A stretch of 64,000 bases of DNA. Origin: Hydractinia symbiolongicarpus. Its lineage: Eukaryota; Cnidaria; Hydrozoa; Anthoathecata; Hydractiniidae. Made by a program: the position numbers and the translations under genes. Under the pieces are notes generated by a model, which searched no databases, was not told where the DNA came from, and was given only the letters and a program-made list of their open reading frames with translations. Positions 23,801 to 62,079 of the stretch are shown in pieces (position 1 is the first letter of the stretch; every line of letters begins with the position of its first letter). The DNA lies in NCBI RefSeq assembly GCF_029227915.1, contig NC_079878.1, positions 13,208,001-13,272,000 on the forward strand. The letters run 5' to 3'.

Positions 23801-26800
23801 ATTTGACCACGGATTGCAAACTAAAGTATGACAAGAAGATGAGTATGACAAGGGTGAGTCTATTACATAAGAAGTAGTGCAAATGCACGCATTTCAAATT
23901 ATACACATACCTGGTTCACAGTCTTTTAGATAACATTGTTTTGTCTCATTAAGAGTTTCCTTTTGGTCATTTTTGAAACAATCCATATATCTAATCCTTA
24001 TACCAAATCCACAATCTGCTGAACAATTACTCCATGCAGTCCATGGATTACAGTGTATATCTAGAATAAAAACATGATAACTTATTAAGTAGCATATAAA
24101 ATTTTAAATAAAAAATCCTAATTTCTGCTAGTTGATGCAGTCAAAACAGTATATAGACGAACTGTATATATGTGTATATAATTAGGGCACAAAGTGAAAC
24201 GTGTATAGCCTCTTTACATCTCTGATGTTTATAAATCTCAAATAAAAAAGCATTCTTCTCATAATGGGGTCAAAAAGTGGCTGATACAATACACCACAAT
24301 ATAGTGTATATTTAGTCTGGTCATTAATAAAAGCCTTAGAAAGAGCTAGAAACAAAACAATAACAAATAAGTTACGCCATACCTGGCTTTCTTGTTATTG
24401 GTGGTGTGGTTGTCCCTGGTGTGGTTCTTGGTGTGGTTGACCCTGGTGTGGTATTTGGTGTGGTCGACCTTGGTGTAGTACTTTGTGTGGTCGACCCTGG
24501 TGTGGTACTTAGGGTGGTCGACCCTGGTGTGGTTCTTGGTGTAGATGACCCTGGTGTGGTACTTGGTGTGGGAGATACTGGTGTGGTTCCTGGCGTAGTT
24601 GAGCCTGGTGTAATGCTTGGTGTGGTTGATCCAACTGTTGATGACACTGATATTGTACTTGTTGTAAATGGTGGAACAGTTGTAAGTGGTGGACAGGGTG
24701 GCTGTATACATGCTATAACAACAGAATTAATATTCATCAAGGAAAAACAAGGACATAATTAAACAATTTATTTTTATCTATAAGATAGTACATCTATTTT
24801 TAACTTTATTTTTTATTTGTTTTATGAGAACATTAGTTATATATATATATAGTTTCTTGTGAGATCCCTGTAAATTTGACTTCTTATATTTATCTGCAAT
24901 GTTAATTAATTTTTTTTATTTTGCCTAAAAAAATATTATGCAGCTTGATCACAAAAACAAAGGTATTTGCACACCAATAACTGCCCAAAAGTGTGGTCAA
25001 TGTTTTGTTCTATAGCATATAATGCATAGATTTGTTAACAATATTTACTCTTCTGAATCTGTCATTTAGCTTTGCAAGAAGACAAATACTAAATCAACTT
25101 GCAAACTTACTGCTTATGATTGTACAATGTGCAAATAAATTATTTTTGTATAGTTTTTATTAGCTTCCTCTATTCAAATTTCCCTGCAAACATAACTATT
25201 TAGTTCTGACTTTAAACAAGGTTTTCTTACCTCCACAATTTCCCCATTGCCTATCTTGATCATAGTTAAGTGTGGTTCCACACCAGTAGCCTTGGTTTGG
25301 TTGAAGAACACATGAATATTGAGGCTGTCCATTGTAAACAAAAGGAATTGAACAACATGCACCATTTGAATTTCCCCCAAATGATGGAAGTTGACATGTA
25401 CCAGAGACTTCTAAGAAGGTAATCATAAACATCAAGATATATACAAGGAGAAATAAAGAAAATAATACATTGCTGAGATGTGCCTTATTTTTCACAAGTT
25501 CTAAGTATTCTAATTATCAATATATGAATTTTTATGTAATTTGGATTCTTTACAACATTTTCTGAGGTCCACTAAATTCATGCCCTTATTAAGGAAATAA
25601 ATTAGTACAGCCATAAACGACATGGCATTAAAATTCAATTTTGTTTACAGAATTCGATACATCCATTACAATTCAAGGAACTTCTTGCTATTTGGTAAAA
25701 ACCCCATCCCCAGACAGTACGGCACTTTTCCCTGATCGAGTGAGTGGCGCTTTGGAGCATGTAATCAGTCAATCAAGTGACTCTCCCCCAATCAATGTTA
25801 AGACATATTTCACCAAAGTTTTGGCTTATCTTTCTACATTACAAATGGGTTCGACTGCTCAGAGTGGTTTTTATATAATGTGAAGCCATTACACCAATAA
25901 CATGTTTCCATATCTTAAGCTAGCTTGTGCTATAGGGTATTAATCATTATTTCTTTCACGAATATATATTTACATTAGTGTTTTTGCTTTGGCTACCCTA
26001 GTTTGTCACCTACGCTAGCTAAGAGTAGCTACATATTTATGTTGTCTAGATAACCGTTTTGGTGTATCCTGTAAGTATGCAGTAGCTCTGTTATCTGTAC
26101 ACGTAATAAAAGACTCAATTATTCACAAGCTAGCTACCCTTACTTGCTTCAAGACATAAAATAATAAAATCATTCCAGCATAATAGCCAGAAACAAATAG
26201 TCTTTTACCATGTTGTTGATCCAACGTAAATAAACATTAATAGCGCCAGAACAGCATGGTGATTTTTTTAATTGGTGAATCGGCGAGAGCTACGCATGTG
26301 AGTTCATATAAAAAAAAATGGGCCCGCACTTTTGTCCAGTGGCTTGAGGGCAAGCCACTGGACAAAAGTGCGGGCCCATTTTTTTTTGTCAAAACAAAAT
26401 AACAAAATAGCCAGTAACAAAACTCCTTAAATATTGCTTTAAGAAGATTTTTATTCAATGTTTTAATTAACAATTTTAAAAACTTAAAATTAGGAGCTTT
26501 TTTATTCTCATTTTATTACCTATTACTGGATTAATTAAGGACTTCAAGAAGAGAACTTTATGCATTAGGCAGATGTCACAAATATTTGGTGTTAGAGTCA
26601 CCTGACCGTCCTTATTTTCAGATCACAGTTGGAAGAATTACAGCAACAAAAAAATCTTCTATGCTCGTTGTCTTCGTTTGGGGTGGCATCTTTCTTGAAA
26701 ACAAACCTTTGTAGATGATGTTTGATTGAGGAAATGATCAAGAGTATTAATAATTTATTATTCAATTAAAAATAATGCACATAAAATATTACTTACTGTT

Positions 26801-38830: not shown

Positions 38831-39643
38831 TTAATCTCTTGTGTCTAACACTAAAACAGTTCTGTCTTTTATTCCTAATATTGAAAGCCTGGACTTTCTA
38901 CTTTTAACTTCTCTTTTTGGCACTTCATTTGTATAAAGTACATATTTTTTCAAGTTTAGTGGTGTCTTTATTTGTTTTTCAAGGAACTCTAACACTACAT
39001 TAAGACTGTCTTGAGAAGAGAAACAGTGCTCAACACGAGTACCTGTAGGTAATCGGATTACTAAATTGATTTGTTCAGAATTAGTTGTGTATTTGTTGAC
39101 TAATTTGTTAGTTGTTGTTGAAGTTGTTGTTGAGCACACATTGACAGTATTATCCATAACAGTTGAACTTGTATTTTGGATAGAAACTTGGGCTTTATAA
39201 TATTTTTCTGAAGAACTGGAACCTAATCGCATTTTCTTTATTGTGTCAGTAAGAATATCATCTTCAATGTTTTCTTGTTCTCCATTTTTGGAAATACTAG
39301 CATTAATCTCATATTGTTGGAGTGTCCTTTTACTTGGCGCTCTAGAATTTGTTGACATTTTTTTATTCTGTTTTTGGTCATTGATACTGGGTAAAGGAGT
39401 GTACCTTGAGAAAGAATCCCTTTTTCTTACATCAGAAGGAAGTTTCGATGAATTTGATATATTTTTGTCCTGATAATTTAACTTGCTACTTTGTCTCGAA
39501 TTAGAACCACTTGAATTAGTCGCCATATTTCTGTCTGTTTGATTCTGTTTTAAGGATTCTCCTTTTCCAGGAAACCTTTGATACTGTTTTGTAATATGTC
39601 TGCTTTTTTGTGGCTTAACTCCATTTGGTGGGTGCGGATACAT
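38831..39643 (-). CDS. UBXN10: UBX-domain protein, UBXN10-like (single exon, 270 aa)
   Basis: An uninterrupted frame from ATG at 39,643 to the stop at 38,831; an in-frame TAA lies just upstream, which fixes the start. Residues 1-190 are Ser/Lys/Gln-rich and probably disordered. Residues 192-270 form a UBX (ubiquitin-like) fold: INLVIRLPTGTRVEHCF, then SQDSLNVVLEFLE and YTNEVPKREV. The S3/S4 loop reads VPK(R) instead of the classical FPR, which is also the case in UBXN10. UBX proteins bind the p97/VCP N-domain, and UBXN10 links p97 to intraflagellar transport at cilia. It lies 580 bp upstream of the LRRC34-like gene on the same strand. Orthology is likely but rests on motif reading. Confidence 0.75.
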   Translation of the reverse strand: MYPHPPNGVKPQKSRHITKQYQRFPGKGESLKQNQTDRNMATNSSGSNSRQSSKLNYQDKNISNSSKLPSDVRKRDSFSRYTPLPSINDQKQNKKMSTNSRAPSKRTLQQYEINASISKNGEQENIEDDILTDTIKKMRLGSSSSEKYYKAQVSIQNTSSTVMDNTVNVCSTTTSTTTNKLVNKYTTNSEQINLVIRLPTGTRVEHCFSSQDSLNVVLEFLEKQIKTPLNLKKYVLYTNEVPKREVKSRKSRLSILGIKDRTVLVLDTRD

Positions 39644-42086
39644 CAAAGGACTTTTTCTCCTTTACAATAATCCATCACATTTGTAATTATAGCTTCAATA
39701 ATTGATTGCAAACTAAAGAATAATTTATGGATTATCATGTTTTCTTTTGCATATGCAGACCATACATCCTGCACATAAAGTTGAAAATTAATAAGAGACA
39801 TTTTAAGAAACCTTTATATGGTCAATTGTCCCAATACTTATGCAGTCCTATTGCTTATGCACAAAAGTTTTGAGTAATAAAAAAATTTATTGATTTCATT
39901 GCGAAGTACATAAGCATTGGGACATTTGATTATACTTAACGTATTATAAATGGAGTTGTGCAAAAAGGCATAAAGCAAACCCATTTTGATGATTTTTAAA
40001 GAAATTACAACAATGTCTTAGCTTCGTGCAGTCCAGTTTTGACAGTTCTTTTAACAAAGCCCCTGATTTGTTAAAAAAACATGTGAAGGAAGGAAGTCAT
40101 ATGTGAGTTTCCCGTCGCAAGCCTGAGTGGTTCTGGAGCACAACTTGAAAACTTTCATTATTTTAAAAAATTATTTTACAGAAAAATTGGAAACCTTGGT
40201 AAAATAATGTGGACGAAGAGTTCTGTCGCGCATTAAATCGAAAAAACACCGCATTGACCATGCCACCACTCAATCATGACCATCTGACATCTACCATTTT
40301 AAATAATTTTATCCTGTGCGATATTAATAACTAAAGCATAACTTTGTTCCCAGGTTCCCAGTTTCAAAACTTTAAACATTACCAACAGTAAAATCAGGCT
40401 TTTTCAGGAGAGGCGTGCGATTGCAAGTGCATGCCTTGGCACACGCCTAAATCATTTCAGGCTTGTGATTAATCGCATGCCTGAAAAATAAATATTGAGT
40501 TTTCAAAATCAACCTAAAAATCCATTTTGTAGCGTGCGATGGCAGCCCTCGAAATAATTTTTGGAGACTCGTCAGACAAAACGTCTAATAGATTTTCGTC
40601 TTGGTCGGACACTTTCAGATCTCAGAATTATTGAATAGTCCTGGTCCTTCTAATCCACAAGCAAGCCTATTCATAGCCAACCTGACCATCCTAGCTAATT
40701 TACCAACTCTTGACTTAGTTAAAAGAACTACGTAGACATAAATCTCTTTTGCCTGATCCCTTCGTCTTTGGTAACCAGGTCTTACACAAGAAATTTAGTC
40801 ATGCGGTTCTTAACTAATGCGGAGGTGAACGCCGACTGAGAACGAATGAAGCAGGTCTGCAAAACGGCACTTACAGGCTAAATAGACATTTTATCATGAA
40901 TTTAATTGTAGATAATTCCTTCATTTGACAAAACAATTGGAAACCAACCAACCAACCAGGTCCAAATTTTTATGGAATTCTTCTTTATGGCTTTAAAAAC
41001 AAAACCCACGTGTGAATCATCGCACACCTACTCAAATATTCCTGAAAAAGCCTGTTAAATACTAATTGCATTTTTTTCTCTTTTTCTTTTCACTGTTATG
41101 CAAAAATACGACCTTTGTTCAGAAAAGTGGAACAAGGTTGAACACTGAACCGGAGCCGCAGAAATCGATTCCGGTTCAGTGCCATGCGTCTGCAAGCTTC
41201 TACGACAGTTGATGGAGACCTATTGGAAAATAATAAAAAATGAAAAATTTTTGCATGGATTTCAAAAACTTGCATGCCTTTGCTATATACATACGGAGGT
41301 AAATTAATTAATTCAATAATTCTTTTCGCACCAGAGGCTTAAATAATCTTTCATCTTAGTCCTAATTTGGACAATCATTTAATTAGCAGAGTACATGCTT
41401 AAGTAAGTTAACTAGCAGTTTTCCCTGGCTTAACTTTAGTAGTAAGCCAAATCGTACATTTCCAGCCAGGATTACTAAATAATATAAAGTATAGAATAAA
41501 ATTACTAAGTATTGGCACACATTACTATTATAAACTGATCAATCGAAACCAAATCAAAGAAGTGTTGGCGTGACAATTGATTGCTACCTACAACATACTT
41601 AAGCAATTTCAGATTTACCATATATTTACAGCAGCCATGTTTGTTGTCATAATTTTGTGTCTGGTAAGCCGTGACCGACTCGGTTAGCGACGTAACAACA
41701 CGGCTAAAAAAATAATATCTAAAACCAGACTTTCACATAATCTACATCAATATATATGTATGTATATTTGCATCTATATACTTTTATATATATTTCTATA
41801 TGCTTCTATTTGCTTCTATATGCCGCGATTAAACTCTACTATAGGGAGTACGTTTTACCTATTTAGTAAATTAGATCCCTTCTGTAGACGCTAAATGATT
41901 CTAGTTAAGTTAACATTTTACAGACTTTAAAAAAAGTACAAGAGTAGTTTGCGTGCCTAGAGTCTATAACGAACCCAGCGCAGTTTGTCTACCTAGACTA
42001 GACAAGATAGTGTAGTCTGAGTGCCTGGGTTCTAATGTGTTGGTAACGAACTAAGCAGAGTTAACGTCCCTAGACTATATAAGATC
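39644..42086. other. Intergenic region; no gene recognised
   Basis: AT-rich sequence upstream of the UBX gene. One piece near 40,410-40,560 repeats the words gcgtgcgat and cgcatgcctg in an irregular way. No conserved exon was seen on either strand. Confidence 0.35.
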
Positions 42087-48520: not shown

Positions 48521-48532
48521 ATATATAAAAAT
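48521..48532 (+). promoter_or_regulatory. TATA box of the plus-strand helical-protein gene
   Basis: atatataaaaat lies about 75-85 nt upstream of the chosen ATG at 48,605. With a usual 30-nt spacing, transcription would begin near 48,555, leaving the in-frame ATG at 48,566 almost at the cap and favouring the second ATG. Confidence 0.5.
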
Positions 48533-48604: not shown

Positions 48605-50707
48605 ATGTCGATAACACTCATTTTGTTCACAGCAGGTATGATTTTACATGATACTCGATTTTACTTTTCTGTTTTTGTACTTGTTTTATACTTTTATCAT
48701 AAGTTCAGACAGCTTGATATGTTAGTTTAGATTTACGTGTCAGTCAAACTGATTTGCTTATAAAAGTGTGGTATATTAATACTGCACATAACGAGCATTT
48801 TTACATAAAACAGTATTTACAATATTTACTGTCATGTGTAAATCTCTATATTCTATATTCTAAAGCTCCTTTCATTGATGTCAATATGATTTTCACAATA
48901 GATGTACAGCTCATGTTGACTGTCGTATTGCAATTTTATATTTTTTAACCATTCCTTAATAAAGCTAGGTAGATATCTTTACATAAAGAACTGTAGCCCC
49001 ATAATCCCTAATATTGATTGTACTATGTGTTAGTGGCTACGTCATTTAGCCTGTGCGCGACTTTATTGTCGTGCTACAGACTAACCAAAAAAACCGTGGA
49101 TTTATCCACTTGTTATGAATAACTGCTTGAACAGACATAAAACTATAGATATAAAAAAGTACCTCACGTTAAATGAGAGTACTTTTGAAAATTTTAACCT
49201 TGTGTCAATTGTGGGAGATAGAATGACAGGTATAAGGTATGGTACGATAGTAGAACTATTAATAAATAAATTGTTATATCAGATAGTGGCTTGACAACAT
49301 TTTAAATTACCCTGTTAAAGGAAGAGGAAGTAAAATTCACCCTTGTACAACATTAAAAGCATTATGGGTTGATTTAAAAATAGATGACCATTCCACCATA
49401 TAAACAGAAATTCACCATACAAAGAATAAAAACTACGTCACTTACGTAATTTTGATTTTTTATCAGATGTCATGGTCTTGTATCGTTTAACACCATATAT
49501 ATTGACACCTTATAAAAAATAAAAACAAGATAGATATGCCGCACCCGGAGTAATTACAAAGATTTTTCTGCCTATAACTATAAAAAAAAATAATTTATGT
49601 TAATTCTTTGTTTTTTTTAGCAATATTAGTGGTTTCTTCCAAATCATATCGCCTTAATTGGACAAAGAGAGGTGACGCTTCCTCTGGAATATGTCCAGTC
49701 AAAACGATAATGGATTATCTTTTCATTGAAACAGAACAAAGTTTGCTTGCCATAAGAGATCTGAAAAGGAAATTGGTAGGCCTTATTAAGATATAAAATT
49801 GCTTTTCATTGACGAAGTGTTTATATTTAGCCAGAAGATAACTTGTGTGTGATTATGCAAATTAATTTTATAGCTTGGTATTTTTCACAGCAACAAAAAC
49901 AAAGAAAAAAATGGTTGCCAATTAGCAGAAACGTATGTTGATTCGCTGAAAACAATTCAATCATATGCTGTAAGATTTTTCGTTGCAGTTAATACAGCTT
50001 ATCCATTGAATATCAAGACTTTCCCAATAATAATTGGTTTTTATTTTTTTAAGTTTTGTTCAAAGGTAAAAGTAAAGTAAATGAAAGCACTGTGAATATG
50101 TCGCTAAGTAATAGCACGGTATCTCAATTGAAGTTTATCAATGAAACATTCTACTCTAGATTACAAAAAGGATGATATTTGACTCCAAGGTTTTAGGAGA
50201 ATATCTACAAATTTTGACACTTATCAGCGAAAGAGAGACAAACATGATCCGACCAAAATCTTTCGTGGAAGAACTTGCTAAAGTTAACATGCGATTGACA
50301 GTACACAAGTATCAATTACTGAAGAAAGCAAAGGTACGGAATGTATCTATTTTGTGTCTTAACCCTGCTATTGCCCGTCCCACCCTTCATTACACAGCTT
50401 CTATATTTACATTAGTGTTTTTTTAGTTCGTCTTACTAGATTTCTACTTTATCTTATCTACGACAGAATAATGTTCATTAATAGTAAAGTAAATACCTTT
50501 ATTTTCCAGGAGCTACAGACCCCTCCATGTCTTGGCTACAACGCAAATGTTACTTTATGGAAAAGATTTGCTCCTCAATATCCAACCACCAATCCCAGAT
50601 CGTGCAACAAAAGCAAAGACGATGAAATATTAACGATCGTGCAAGATATTGAAACAATTTTCATGATAAGCAAATCGTGGTTTTTTAGAAGAGCAGAAGC
50701 AAACTAA
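48605..50707 (+). CDS. Secreted helical cytokine-like protein A (5 exons, 217 aa)
   Basis: The exons are 48,605-48,635, 49,621-49,775, 49,874-49,969, 50,160-50,333 and 50,510-50,707, total 654 nt, with intron phases 1-0-0-0. The start MSITLILFTAAILVVSS is a signal peptide; an earlier in-frame ATG (48,566) would add 13 polar residues and is less likely. The mature chain has four cysteines (35, 77, 159, 184). Predicted amphipathic helices are in exon 2 (IMDYLFIETEQSLLAIRDLK), exon 3 (AETYVDSLKTIQSYA), exon 4 (long, residues 95-152) and the end of exon 5 (DDEILTIVQDIETIFMI). Between helices 3 and 4 runs PPCLG ... LWKRFAPQYPTTNPRSC. It shares exon plan and cysteine spacing with the gene at 52.5-53.8 kb. 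The layout resembles class I helical cytokines/hormones; the function is unknown. Confidence 0.78.
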
Positions 50708-50958
50708 TTTAAATTGCTAATATATACATAGCTTATTTTATTTTTACCAGTTAGTTAGGTTATTTATTTTAATATTAGTTCAATAGGGCAACTTCGTGTA
50801 AAAAAAACTGACTAATAATACAGAAACATTTACATGCTGCAAGTTTTGCACGTCTAACCCCGTAATGCCTCATTTTGCGAAAAAAAGGCTTGTAGTGTAG
50901 TTGATTTGATTTCTTTCTAATTTTCTTTTCTTCAAATCATAAACTTAACCTCTGTTAC

Positions 50959-51332
50959 ATTGCAATTTATACTTCCTATTAAATGATGCAAGTTTTCACT
51001 CGACTCAGAAATGTTTTCCTCCCCACATTCTATAAGGAGAATGTCAGTTTTTTGTAATGACATACGACTCGAGTTTAGTAACTATAATTGTAATAAAAAT
51101 GCAAAAATGCATATTTTTGTTTTAAGCTAAATTAACCATGAAGTACCTTTGAATCCTTTTAAGAGCAGGAAAAGAAAAAATAATAATCTACTAATGGTCA
51201 ACTCGAGATACCAATCGCAAACACCATACTGTAATCGACATCGGAAGTTTTAATTAACTTACCTAGGAAACAAGTGCGTAGGGATTATAAATTACCTCAG
51301 GCGAGATATTATCTTTAACTTTCCAAACAAAT
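50959..51332 (+). repeat. Direct repeat R1 (3' flank of helical-protein gene A)
   Basis: About 370 bp beginning attgcaatttatacttccta and ending near taactttcc. It is repeated in the same orientation at 53,967-54,341 and, more diverged, at about 55,715-56,010. Shared words include acattctataaggagaatgt, acgactcgagtttagtaacta and gggattataaatt. Confidence 0.8.
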
Positions 51333-51787
51333 CATGAACTTAATCTCTGTTATACATCAGCAAATATTACTTTTTTTTCATGTCCATATTATGTCAGACC
51401 ACCCATACGTTTAGTTTCAGTCAAGAGGAAACTTCAAGAAAAATGAGAGAATTGTTACGATTATGACTATAACTGCTACTAAAAGTTTGAAAATTGGATA
51501 CGTTGCTTAAAGAATATTTACACTTCATATAACATATAACAGAACTAAACAAATCGTAGACAACACTCTGCAAGATATATTATTTGGACAGCATCGTTCG
51601 TTCGCTTTCTTAATATAATGGGGACAAGCGTAAAAATAGTGTATACTTATTTAGACCCACAGCTCAGTCGAAATTAAGAATCCGTACGACAGTAAAAAGT
51701 TAATCTCGGAACAAGCAAAATAGTGTTATTTTATGGACACAATGTGAGTGATCAATGAGAACAGCATATGTGAGATTATTGTTATGT

Positions 51788-52055
51788 GCTGGTAACCTAG
51801 TGGCAGAGCATTCGCTTCAAGTGCGGGAGGTCTTAGGTTCAATCCCCGACTGAGTCATGCCAAAGGCTATAAAAGTGTGAATCGATGCTTTCTGCTTAAC
51901 ATTCATAATGAGAATGGAATTGATATCTTTGGCGGTTCTAGTTGAGCGATTGCTGTGCTTGAACGACTTTCGTAGCTGAAATAGGAGTTTTGAATGCACT
52001 AGGCCCCTCTTCGCAGCACCCTCGTTAATAGCAGTACCAAAAAGAAAAAAAGAAG
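51788..52055 (+). mobile_element. tRNA-derived SINE, second family
   Basis: The head ggtaacctagtggcagagca (A-box-like) is followed 45 nt later by ggttcaatccc (B box), then an unrelated body and an A-rich tail (aaaaagaaaaaaagaa). A real tRNA was considered, but the acceptor arms do not pair. It lies between the two helical-protein genes. Confidence 0.7.
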
Positions 52056-52477
52056 CTATCCTGGTTGAACAATCTCAATAATAATTAAAATTAATTAAAA
52101 GAAAATATGTACTAGAAACACACATTTTTTGTTTTAGCACTTTAAGTGCATACCCTTGTACAGGTTTAAATCTATGCAACTTTTATGTTATTAGTATGCA
52201 ATTATAATTTATGTCGAGTAACCAAATGCCAAAATGGTGAAACACGAACATCCCGAGAATGAAGGTGTTTTTTAAAAAACGTCGTTAAGAAAATATGTTG
52301 ACAAAACCACACGTATTTTTAGTTCCGATCACCAAAGAAAAGAAATATGTGAAATAATAATTAAAATATTAATTGTTGCCGCATTTCTAATTATTATTTC
52401 AATTTCATTTTATAACCAATATGAATTTGAACAAGCATTTTAAAAGGTTAATAAAAACAACAAACTGAATTTTTAAA

Positions 52478-52483
52478 TTTATT
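52478..52483 (-). terminator. Polyadenylation signal of helical-protein gene B
   Basis: The minus strand reads AATAAA about 35 nt after the TAA stop at 52,517. Confidence 0.45.
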
Positions 52484-52516
52484 CCCGCAATATATTATCA
52501 TTTATAACAAGACTAT

Positions 52517-53849
52517 TTATTTGTTCTCTTGAAAGTAGAAACTTTTAATATCAATATAAATTGCTTCAATATCTTGAACTATGGTCAGAATTTGATCGTT
52601 CTTATTTCTGTTGCAAGGAGCTGGATTCTCAGTTGGATAATCAGGAGTATACTTTCTCCATAATGTGACCATTTCCTTTTTTCCAAGACAAGGGTTGTTG
52701 GATAATTCCTGAAATAAAAAGAGCTTAAATATAAACATGGATATGAAAATCAAACTTCTATTATTTCCATTTTCATAAAGAAAGACAGGTAACGATTTTC
52801 TTACTGTAGTTCACAGTATATAAGATTCAACCGTAAATTAGATTAATGAAACAGAACTCAATATATTACTGAAACAATTAAGAAACATTACATTTTGTTT
52901 CCTGTTTGTTTTTCTTACATCAATCACCATTCTTCTTATCACTTTATTCAGCTGTTTCAGAAAGGAACCTTTTCGTGGTAGCTTTATCTCTATTCTATTA
53001 ATATTTTCCAGTTGCGATAAATACTGCAATATAACTTTTTTGTTGTAATCCATTCTTTTCAATGTCTAAATAAAAAAAAAATATATGGCATTATTTTGAC
53101 CTTACCCTTATTTAGGCCGTCTTGTTTTCCATGAAACAAGTAATATTACCGTATAAAACTACTTTTGTAACTTACACTAAACTTCTGAAAAACTTCCATC
53201 GAATCTACATAAGCCATTGCAGGTTGACAACCATTTCTCTTCTTTTTCTCACCAGGATAAAATGTTCTCAACTAAATTAATAATTGCAATATCCCAAGTA
53301 ATGAACACAATCGAAAAATAAATCCGATCTAGAAAAATGTTACATACCAATTGATGTTTCAACTCTTGGATAGCCATCAAAGTTTTAAATGTATGAATAA
53401 ACAGGTGGTCAAATGCCACTTTAACTTCACAACTGCTATTGTAAACTGAGTCTTCTTGTCCAATGTTTCTACTGTTCGGAAATGTTTTAACTGAATATAT
53501 CAAATATACCAAACCTGAAATTGATACAAATATACTTCTATTACTGAATAGTTTTAAACAATCTATTACCCTATCTAATTCAATTGCATTTTTCACTCAC
53601 AGCTTTTTATTTTTATTTTCTAAGAGAAGCAACGTGAAAAACAAGTTACAAAAGATGGTTTTATTTAATTTTACATTGCTACAAGTTGTCATTACAGGAT
53701 GGTGAATTCTACGTTGCTGTATCAGGGTCGGTTACATAAGCAATTTGTTTTAGGAGGGCATGAAAAAATGTGTAAATATTAGTAAAATTTAAAGTTACAG
53801 TTTTAATCCGTCATTACTTACCAATACAGGTTAGTTTCAAAGCAGCCAT
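52517..53849 (-). CDS. Secreted helical cytokine-like protein B (5 exons, 218 aa)
   Basis: The exons are 53,822-53,849, 53,348-53,514, 53,176-53,271, 52,892-53,065 and 52,517-52,708 (657 nt), phases 1-0-0-0. Exons 3 and 4 have exactly the same lengths (96, 174 nt) as in gene A. For exon 4 I chose the gtaatg donor because it reproduces this length; a stronger gtaaga donor at 52,919 would remove nine residues. The signal peptide is MAALKLTCIGLVYLIYSV. Cysteines 38, 80, 162 and 187 have the same 42-82-25 spacing as in A. Shared motifs are DHLFIHTFKTLMAIQELK (exon 2), NGCQ ... YVDS (exon 3), KRM (exon 4), NPCLG, LWRKYTPDYPTENPAPCN and ILTIVQDIEAIY (exon 5). It is inverted relative to A. A secreted signalling role is inferred from architecture only. 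Confidence 0.78.
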
Positions 53850-53909: not shown

Positions 53910-53918
53910 CTTTTATAG
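53910..53918 (-). promoter_or_regulatory. TATA box of helical-protein gene B
   Basis: The minus strand reads CTATAAAAG about 65 nt before the ATG at 53,849, giving a predicted 5' UTR of some 35 nt. Gene A has a TATA-type promoter at a similar distance. Confidence 0.5.
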
Positions 53919-53966: not shown

Positions 53967-54341
53967 TATTGCAATTTATACTTCCTATTAAATGATGCAA
54001 GTTTTCACTGGACTCGAAAATGTTTTTCCCCCACATTCTATAAGGAGAATGTCTGTTTTTTGTAATTGCATACGACTCGAGTTTAGTAACTATAATTCTA
54101 ATAAAAATGAAAAAATGGATTTGAAACCTTGAATAATTTGCTAAATTAACCATGAGATACTTTTCAATCCTTTGAGAGCAGGAGAAGAAAAAAGATCTAC
54201 TTATGACAAACTCGAGATACCAGTCGCAAACACCATACTGTAATTTATAATTATCGGATGTTAAAATTAACTTGGAAACAAGTGCGTAGGTATTATAAAT
54301 TAGATCAGGCGAGACATTATTTTTAACTTTCCGAATAAATC
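53967..54341 (+). repeat. Direct repeat R2 (5' flank of helical-protein gene B)
   Basis: Copy of R1 in the same orientation. It covers the sequence immediately upstream of the gene B promoter. A 174-codon open frame on the minus strand across it is composed mostly of repeat and is not treated as a gene. Confidence 0.8.
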
Positions 54342-55714
54342 TTCTTTTATGTGCCGCTTTTGAACGTCTTAAAGAAAATAGATATAACCTTCGCATTTTT
54401 TACCTAAAACTTGATAAAAAACCTAAAACCTTAAAAATGTGCAAATAAACAATATGTTACAACGGTTTACTTAGTTTTATCATACTTAGCCTTTACTTCA
54501 AACCGAGGCGTACCATAAGAAGTCAAAAACTAAGAAGAATTTGATAGTGATCTTAGTGACTTTAGCACCACTAAATAAAACAGCCTATTTCGTCCATGGA
54601 AATAAATAATACAAATGATTTATGTAAGAAATTCAACGCAATGCAACGTTCTGGCGAGAATTACATGGTAATGAGCCTTTGAAGTGATGAAATTATTTGA
54701 TGAGGCTAAATGAGTTATGTATATCGCAATTATTATATAATTAGTTAGTTATCACACAAGGTCATACGAATTAAGTTAATGAGGTCCGCTCACGATAGTA
54801 TTAACCACTATAAAAAATCCTAAGACATTTCCCCGTAATTAAAAACAGATAAAGTCACTATCATGGAAAGATTTTCTATGCTGACAGCAGTTGGTGTATC
54901 ATCCGACCCAAATAATCAATTAGATTGAAATAAGACAAACCATTAAATAGCGCTACGATTGATCATTTTTTTTCATTTCTACCTTATACGTTGGCAAGTA
55001 AAATCCAAAAAATCATGGTGCACTCAATAAAATTTAGCTTCAAATAATATTTATTTTATTGCCACAATAACATCCTCAGTTTAACTGATCTATACATGCA
55101 ATCACATTAATCAACTTAAGAAGGTGCATTCGACAGAAAATGTTGGTACTAATAGTTGGACTTTAGAAAGTACGAACTTGACATGTATTTGTCTTAAACA
55201 AGTTGATTTAATGGTCATTACCGTATAACGGAAAAACGATAAACTGGGAAGTTAGCCTTGACAAGTAAAAAGTTGCTATAGTAAATCATGTGATAAATGA
55301 TTGGAACAATGAGGTACTATCTAAACTAAGTGGATGAACGCGTTACACCTATGTACATTTGCAGATAACTTCTTTTCAAAAAAGAGCATGTTTTAGCTAA
55401 TTTCCTATTTCAACTTAAAAAATTACCATAATAGTATGGATGATGTTTAAAATAAAATAAAACATTACGGCGGTTTGATTAACCTTCTAAGCCATTCCTT
55501 TTCTCAGAAGACAAGAAGTTTGACACAGTGAGAGAGGCTTGTTTTGTACCCAAATAATTATCTATAATTATTTGTTATTTTGTTGCGACGTTACAGAGCC
55601 ATGATGATGCTGGACGATTCAAGAATTTGCTGTCAAACAGTCCTTTGAAGTAAGCCCTTGTCCAACTAAGCAGAATACTTTTATAGAACTAAATAATTTT
55701 AAAGAATTTATCAC

Positions 55715-56010
55715 ATAAGGCTCGATTTTAGTAACTATAAATGCATTAAAAATGTAAAAATGCATATTTTGTGTTCTAGCAAATCTAAATCCATCAGAAA
55801 ATCCCTTTATTAACTTAAACCAAATTAACAAAATACAATCTTATCCTTTAAAAGCAAAGAAAAAAATTTGGAAAAATACTAATACTGATGACAAACTCGC
55901 TTTTCCAATTGCAAATACAATACTGTAATTAAGAACTACCGGAAATTTTAATTACCTTTGCTGGGAAACAAGTTTGTTGGGATTATAAATTGGATTAGCC
56001 GAGACATCTC
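55715..56010 (+). repeat. Direct repeat R3 (diverged copy)
   Basis: Shares ctcgattttagtaactata, gcatattttgtgtt, gacaaactcg, caatactgtaatt, gggaaacaagt and gggattataaattggatta with R1 and R2. No helical-protein exon was found within 3 kb of it. Confidence 0.6.
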
Positions 56011-59700: not shown

Positions 59701-60228
59701 TATCTGTGATGAGTAACTCTGGCGACAGAGCTAACCAGTCTAATTCTAAAAAATGGTGACTTATTCTTAAGTCTTTAAAATCCCTTTTTTGGAATAAAGA
59801 AATTAGACACTTTAAATCAATAATTTTTTGTTTTCTTTGGATTAATCACAGCTAAATTAGCATGCGTATAAATTTTCAACTTAATTAACATCAGGAAGTA
59901 TTACTCAGCAGTCAAACTCGTTTTAAAATTTAAAATTTAATTTTTATACTACGCCTCGATTTGATGCAGAGGTCTAGCATGAAGAATTCCATAGACTGAT
60001 TTATCTGACTAAGTTTTGTTAAATACTTCGAATGGTATACTTATCTTCTATAATGCATTGGGAATCTACTGCGCAAGGAAACTTATTCAGGAAGTTGCTG
60101 TGAAAATGATGTCATATCCTGACGAATTTATAAAACATTCGCATCGTTTGCAAGATAAATTAATTAAATTCCGATATTTCTCATAACAGTATCGTGTTTG
60201 CACTTTTATTATCTCGCTACTGCCATTA
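56760..60228. other. AT-rich interval without recognised genes
   Basis: Several open frames of 60-90 codons occur, but none has a conserved motif or supported splice sites. It may contain further decayed copies of the helical-protein genes too diverged to see by eye. Confidence 0.35.
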
Positions 60229-60642
60229 GTGGCATTTGACCACCTGTTTATTCATACATTCAAAACTTTGATGGCTATCCAAGAGTTGAAACATGAATTG
60301 GTATGTAACATTTTTTAGATCGGATTTATTTTTCGATTGTGTTCAAAACTTAGGATATTACAATTATTAATTTAGTTGAGAACATTTTATCCTGGTGAAA
60401 AAAAGAAAAGAAACGGTTGTCAACCTGCAATGGCTTATGTAGATTCGATGGAAGTTTTTCAGAAGTTTAGTGTAAGTTACAAAAGTAGTTTTATACGGTA
60501 TGGCATGGTAGATGAAATATCACTTGTTTCATGGAAAACAAGACGACCTAAATAAGGGTAAGGTCAAAATAATTGCATATAATTTTTTTTTATTTAGACA
60601 TTGAAAAAAATGGATTTCAACAAAAAAGTTATATTGCAGTAA
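60229..60642 (+). pseudogene. Decayed inverted copy of helical-protein gene B (copy C)
   Basis: Three exon remnants in the right order: second half of exon 2 (60,229-60,300, ends at gtatgt), a complete exon 3 (60,376-60,471, 96 nt) and the start of exon 4 (60,598 onward). The introns also match gene B closely. Exon 4 stops at TAA 60,640-60,642, where ttatattgcagta is followed by a local duplication and homology to B ends. Exon 1, the first half of exon 2 and exon 5 are absent. It is on the opposite strand from B. Confidence 0.85.
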
Positions 60643-61384: not shown

Positions 61385-61545
61385 CCGCACCGCACCTTTA
61401 CTTTCTTCATTAATTGATATTTGTGCACTTTTTTTTCAAGATTTTGCTCAATTGTTAATGTTTTATTGTCTTCGGTGTCTTGCACAAATCTAAATTGATG
61501 GTAGGATATTGAGGGAAAATGCGTTAGACAAGGTAAAGTTTGCGT
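61385..61545 (-). pseudogene. Scrambled relic of the helical-protein family (copy D)
   Basis: On the minus strand, an exon-5-like segment (ccttgtcta, then cctcaatatcctacc and tgcaa, then acattaacaattgagcaaaatcttga) carries frameshifts. It is followed directly by an exon-4 end (KVHKYQLMKKVK, compare VHKYQLLKKAK in gene A) with a gtgcgg donor. The order exon 5 before exon 4 is reversed, so it is a rearranged fragment and not a gene. It is closer to A than to B. Confidence 0.7.
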
Positions 61546-62079
61546 TGTTTTTAACACATGAAGGCGTTTTTATTATATCCATTATCCATTGTTTCAGAAA
61601 TTATCTCCAAGTGCTTTCCTATTCTACCGTGGCTTACAATATGCATTTATTTGACTTTGTATTACTAAAACTTTATTCGTCGAATTAAGATTATAGTAAC
61701 ACAAGTATTTCCCATTGCCTGTAAATACAAAGATTTAAAAAAAAAAAAAATGATGAAGGCGTAACCTTTCACCTGTTCATTTATACGTCCGCAAAAGAAG
61801 TAAGTTCATCATCAAGTTTATGTAACAGCGTATTCACTGAAGACAACTTGGAGTTATTTTTGTCGCGCTAGTAATCTTTAGTAGGTTTTAGCATGAAGAG
61901 TTTGGTTAACTAAGACTTTAATATTGGTTAAAACATTCAGTCATTCATGTCTATCTGTCACGCAAAATGGTACCGCATGGTAACAGATGTTTATCTATAG
62001 AATCCTTTTACACTCATAATTCCTTCACAACTACTGAGCACTTCTTACATCAAACATACATGCGTAGATTTTATGTATC

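Follow-up and report, generated by a model that had tools for sequence, protein, structure and literature searches.

Candidate class I-like helical cytokines in a constrained, multi-copy gene family

A 64,000-nucleotide window of genomic DNA (C4:13208001-13272000) contains two intact genes, gene 1 and gene 2, which belong to a multi-copy family encoding proteins with hydrophobic, signal-like N-termini and a conserved cysteine spacing. We consider it rather probable that the pair belongs to a family of secreted ligands that act as signals, evolve by birth and death and adopt the fold of long-chain class I helical cytokines.

We assembled both gene models from the DNA sequence alone. Gene 1 lies on the forward strand and comprises a 31-nucleotide (nt) exon 1 with the start of the predicted signal peptide (48605-48635), a 155-nt exon 2 with the rest of the signal peptide, Cys1 and helix A (49621-49775), a 96-nt exon 3 with the loop between helices A and B (AB loop) and Cys2 (49874-49969), a 174-nt exon 4 with helices B and C (50160-50333), and a 198-nt exon 5 with Cys3, the CD loop, Cys4, helix D and the stop codon (50510-50707). 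Gene 2 is arranged in the same way on the reverse strand: exon 1 (53822-53849; 28 nt) encodes the signal peptide start, exon 2 (53348-53514; 167 nt) Cys1 and helix A, exon 3 (53176-53271; 96 nt) the AB loop and Cys2, exon 4 (52892-53065; 174 nt) helices B and C, and exon 5 (52517-52708; 192 nt) Cys3, the CD loop, Cys4, helix D and the stop. All introns are GT-AG, with phases 1, 0, 0 and 0 in both genes. The predicted products have 217 and 218 residues, the latter with exon 4 ending at 52892 (donor GTAATG). An alternative donor nearer the consensus, GTAAGA, would end this exon at 52919 and give 209 residues; we prefer the 174-nt exon because gene 1, three intact Y-type paralogues and locus L009 (58 codons; see below) share its length. 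For gene 1 exon 3, an acceptor at 49891 was rejected, as it shifts the frame; 49874 instead yields the 96-nt exon. Candidate TATA-like sites read by eye lie 83 nt upstream of the gene 1 ATG in AT-rich DNA (48522-48529, forward strand) and about 68 nt upstream of the gene 2 ATG (53911-53917, reverse strand). Gene 2 is flanked by an interspersed repeat (50959-51333, 53968-54341 and 55710-56007), of which copies one and two share 83% identity across 385 columns and the third is a weaker match.

The two proteins are 39% identical. Their cysteines, at residues 35/77/159/184 in gene 1 and 38/80/162/187 in gene 2, share an identical spacing of 42, 82 and 25 residues, and their later exon junctions, at residues 62/94/152 and 65/97/155, fall close to where helices A and C end and, for the middle one, ahead of helix B. 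Both N-termini read as hydrophobic and signal-like, as predicted for secreted proteins of about 200 residues. An earlier note on this DNA had described two intact five-exon genes for secreted proteins of 217 and 218 residues, with conserved gene structure, exactly kept cysteine spacing and a shared PCLG...LW+(+)xxPxYPTxNPxxC...ILTIVQDIE signature. The rebuilt models confirm these points, with secretion at the level of prediction, and show in addition equal intron phases and equal lengths of exon 3 and exon 4.

We then searched the genome assembly (480.9 Mb, 76 contigs), scoring the best candidates. With gene 1 exon 5 as query, at least 13 matches were obtained at E <= 0.001, the two window genes among them, so that at least 11 further loci exist; exon 5 of L019, the most diverged member, recovered this set of loci with at least 13 matches at E <= 1. 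Exon 4 lies upstream of exon 5 in all 11 further loci. Exon 3 was found by tblastn in 10 of the 11, the L019 copy being recognised by reading the DNA, and exon 2 was located everywhere except at L010. Because these loci match exon 5 and carry upstream exons alongside, the window pair is more than a chance resemblance. Spacing of 42/82/25 is exact in four of five family representatives, L019 being without Cys2.

Eight of the loci fall into two types, X and Y, and occupy two palindrome-like, duplicated blocks at C4:1.73-1.77 Mb and C4:10.33-10.37 Mb. All four X copies are broken; of the four Y copies, three remain intact and have 211 codons, exons of 28/146/96/174/192 nt and a first intron of phase 1. 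The other members are a pair on C14 (L009 and L010) and the single gene L019 at C4:6.18 Mb. A filtered scan, which also listed other candidates, led us to propose that X, Y and L019 start with an exon of 28 nt that ends in phase 1; none is convincing at L009. Within the window, and beyond the earlier note's account, a decayed partial copy of gene 2 (60228-60640, forward strand) retains part of exon 2, exon 3 and the start of exon 4, with DNA 92% identical over 415 columns, and a frame-broken, decayed exon-5-like remnant is followed by a stretch resembling the end of exon 4 (61396-61573, reverse strand). The family thus evolves by birth and death. As separate observations, the blocks at C4:1733000-1773000 and C4:10325000-10367000 are alike and hold their X and Y copies as inverted pairs, reflecting segmental duplication or an assembly effect, and L009 (C14:8300600-8306600) has exon 4 doubled in tandem, which could permit alternative exon use.

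Comparison of the five representatives from Cys1 onwards gave a proportion of synonymous differences (pS) of 0.73-0.82, which is saturated, and nonsynonymous divergence (dN) of 0.40-0.65. Since synonymous change between subfamilies is saturated while dN stays at this level, the genes are old and constrained, and their divergence reflects age under constraint. The earlier note had taken these to be fast-evolving ligands, a description we would replace; the dN and pS figures likewise lend no support to positive selection as the source of divergence. The three intact Y copies differ from one another by a dN of 0.010-0.016 and a synonymous divergence (dS) of 0.02-0.06, and the decayed gene 2 copy has three differences in exon 3 that leave the exon-3 protein unaltered. 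Conservation across the family is strongest in the CD loop and helix D.

Within the libraries searched, comparison with known families bore out the suggestion that this one is undescribed. In Pfam, the window proteins returned nothing usable (only LSU, E 0.22), and five family members matched no cytokine or effector family, the best hit being DUF5638 for one member (E 0.043). No cytokine was matched among Protein Data Bank (PDB) sequences, where the one hit was to FtsZ (E 2.2). In a protein collection, 1075 candidates were scored with none at E <= 10 and 1714 with none at E <= 1. None of 98 pattern stretches from IMG/VR was confirmed, and phage records queried with gene 1 exon 5 yielded nothing usable. 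Helical cytokine families often escape sequence detection.

AlphaFold2 predicted four long helices in both proteins, with further short helices inside the AB and CD loops, at low confidence (predicted local distance difference test, pLDDT, < 50), in line with the four helix-prone segments noted before. In both models the AB and CD loops are long and the BC loop is short. When the gene-2 model was compared with PDB structures by VIA-align, class I cytokines made up 46 of the 50 matches listed; neither EPO nor any class II cytokine was recognised among these 50, an absence that excludes nothing. The predicted fold resembles that of vertebrate long-chain class I cytokines (IL-11, CNTF, CLCF1, OSM, LIF, IL-6, G-CSF, prolactin, growth hormone and EPO) in its four long helices and long AB and CD loops and, for gene 2, in its listed structure matches. 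It differs from them in having no sequence similarity detectable in Pfam or PDB sequences, and in a host genome without a match to the jawed-vertebrate C1-set, which no control genome matched either.

Gene anatomy points the same way. Human EPO, growth hormone (GH) and IL-6 have coding exons of 13/146/87/180/156, 10/161/120/165/198 and 19/191/114/147/168 nt, respectively, with introns of phases 1-0-0-0. Both window genes and the Y copies share this pattern of five coding exons and phases. The EPO mRNA is reported to have five exons and an exon-3-less variant, and probe sequences spanning the exon 2/3 and 2/4 junctions are given (PMC12832296); in our reading, which uses the EPO frame and helix, these junctions are of phase 0 after helix A. 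Oncostatin M is described as an up-up-down-down bundle with disulfides Cys6-Cys127 and Cys49-Cys167 (PMC8355150). Its spacing of 43/78/40 is near in layout to the 42/82/25 found here, which suggests Cys1-Cys3 and Cys2-Cys4 pairing in the window proteins. Once the signal peptide is cleaved, the mature chain would form a four-helix bundle of up-up-down-down topology, in which long loops make the AB and CD crossovers. One disulfide would tie Cys1, ahead of helix A, to Cys3 where the CD loop starts; the other would join Cys2 in the AB loop with Cys4, which immediately precedes helix D. Through helix D and the CD loop, both conserved, the secreted ligand may bind a cytokine receptor with a single membrane pass, either CRLF3-like or of another type, and so activate JAK-STAT signalling. 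The signal-like N-terminus, the constraint and one hit in the genome for the DNA-binding family of STAT (PF02864; 29.1 bits against a cut-off of 27, covering positions 1-27 of 133) bear on this proposal. No genome match to EpoR_lig-bind was found at E <= 1, and controls matched in two microbes, below cut-off; this absence says little because exons are split and the animal is distant.

Several results weigh against, or qualify, the reading as a class I ligand. The gene-1 model had no natural cytokine among its 50 listed VIA-align matches (again an absence that excludes nothing), reached IL-6 by Foldseek only at ranks 13 and 15, and matched OspC, designed bundles and bacterial sensor domains. 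The earlier note's reading of these proteins as cytokine-like is supported in part: the predicted helices, the gene-2 matches and an exon anatomy like that of class I agree with it; the gene-1 model and the low confidence of both do not. L019, lacking Cys2, fits the proposed disulfides imperfectly, and intron phases alone are modest evidence because phase-1 introns are reported to be frequent near signal-peptide cleavage sites (PMC1626468). The gene-1 matches and the weakness of both models would suit a lineage-specific secreted helical protein of another four-helix topology or fold, its intron phases and cysteine layout coincidental. We regard this as unlikely, given that the predicted loops are long for AB and CD and short for BC, as an up-up-down-down arrangement needs, and given the cysteine layout near that of OSM and the gene-2 matches.

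A net charge (K+R-D-E) of +9 to +18 from Cys1 in the five representatives, together with the gain and loss of copies, could instead indicate a secreted helical effector of cationic type, with an antimicrobial, host-defence or venom-like role, whose target would be membranes or microbes and not a receptor, its gene turnover reflecting an arms race. The strong constraint seen in helix D and one loop, the class I-like arrangement of exons, the gene-2 matches and the failure of Pfam to return an effector family make this slightly less likely still. Class II cytokines (interferons and the IL-10 family) resemble the family in being secreted, helical and roughly 200 residues long, and five coding exons, a signal peptide and mostly phase-0 introns are among the features used to search for them (PMC8863823). 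Their introns are reported to be all phase 0 in that source, except for an extra first exon of phase 1 in IFNL2/3 (PMC2654155), whereas both window genes and the Y copies begin with a phase-1 intron; with no class II cytokine recognised among the 50 matches listed for gene 2, a class II identity seems very unlikely. A possible parallel among invertebrates comes from fruitflies, which are reported to make helical cytokines (PMC4172062). Unpaired is such an insect cytokine. A bolder form of the class I reading, which we hold as doubtful, is that a non-bilaterian animal here carries genuine homologues of the long-chain class I cytokines of vertebrates, with the 1-0-0-0 introns at helix boundaries and both cysteine pairs inherited; helical cytokines would then predate the cnidarian-bilaterian split, and this family would be the natural ligand of a CRLF3-type receptor.

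Elsewhere in the window, exons with VWA and TSP1 matches, and weaker WSC-, Laminin_G_3- and ShK-like ones, share the reverse strand from about 2000 to 27000 and possibly belong to a single large mosaic protein, secreted or membrane-bound, or to a few such proteins. A 27-base tandem repeat of 8.4 copies at 24402-24629 is Thr/Pro-rich in one reading frame, and a 276-codon open frame on the reverse strand (38831-39661) contains a UBX domain above the Pfam cut-off. GFP had no match in the genome or in any control genome. The host is probably an invertebrate: a jawed vertebrate seems improbable, and a cnidarian is plausible.

In the literature searched, at the level of partial listings, we found no helical cytokine ligand in a cnidarian. 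CRLF3 is described as a class I receptor present from cnidarians to mammals whose natural ligand is unidentified (PMC8063046, PMC6797617, PMC12409108). A class I-like helical secreted family outside vertebrates would offer concrete candidates for that ligand. More broadly, combining exon phases, the position of junctions relative to helices and cysteine layout provides an approach to ligands beyond the reach of sequence search, and the family bears on the date of helical cytokine origin, directly so if the fold is confirmed and the host is a cnidarian.
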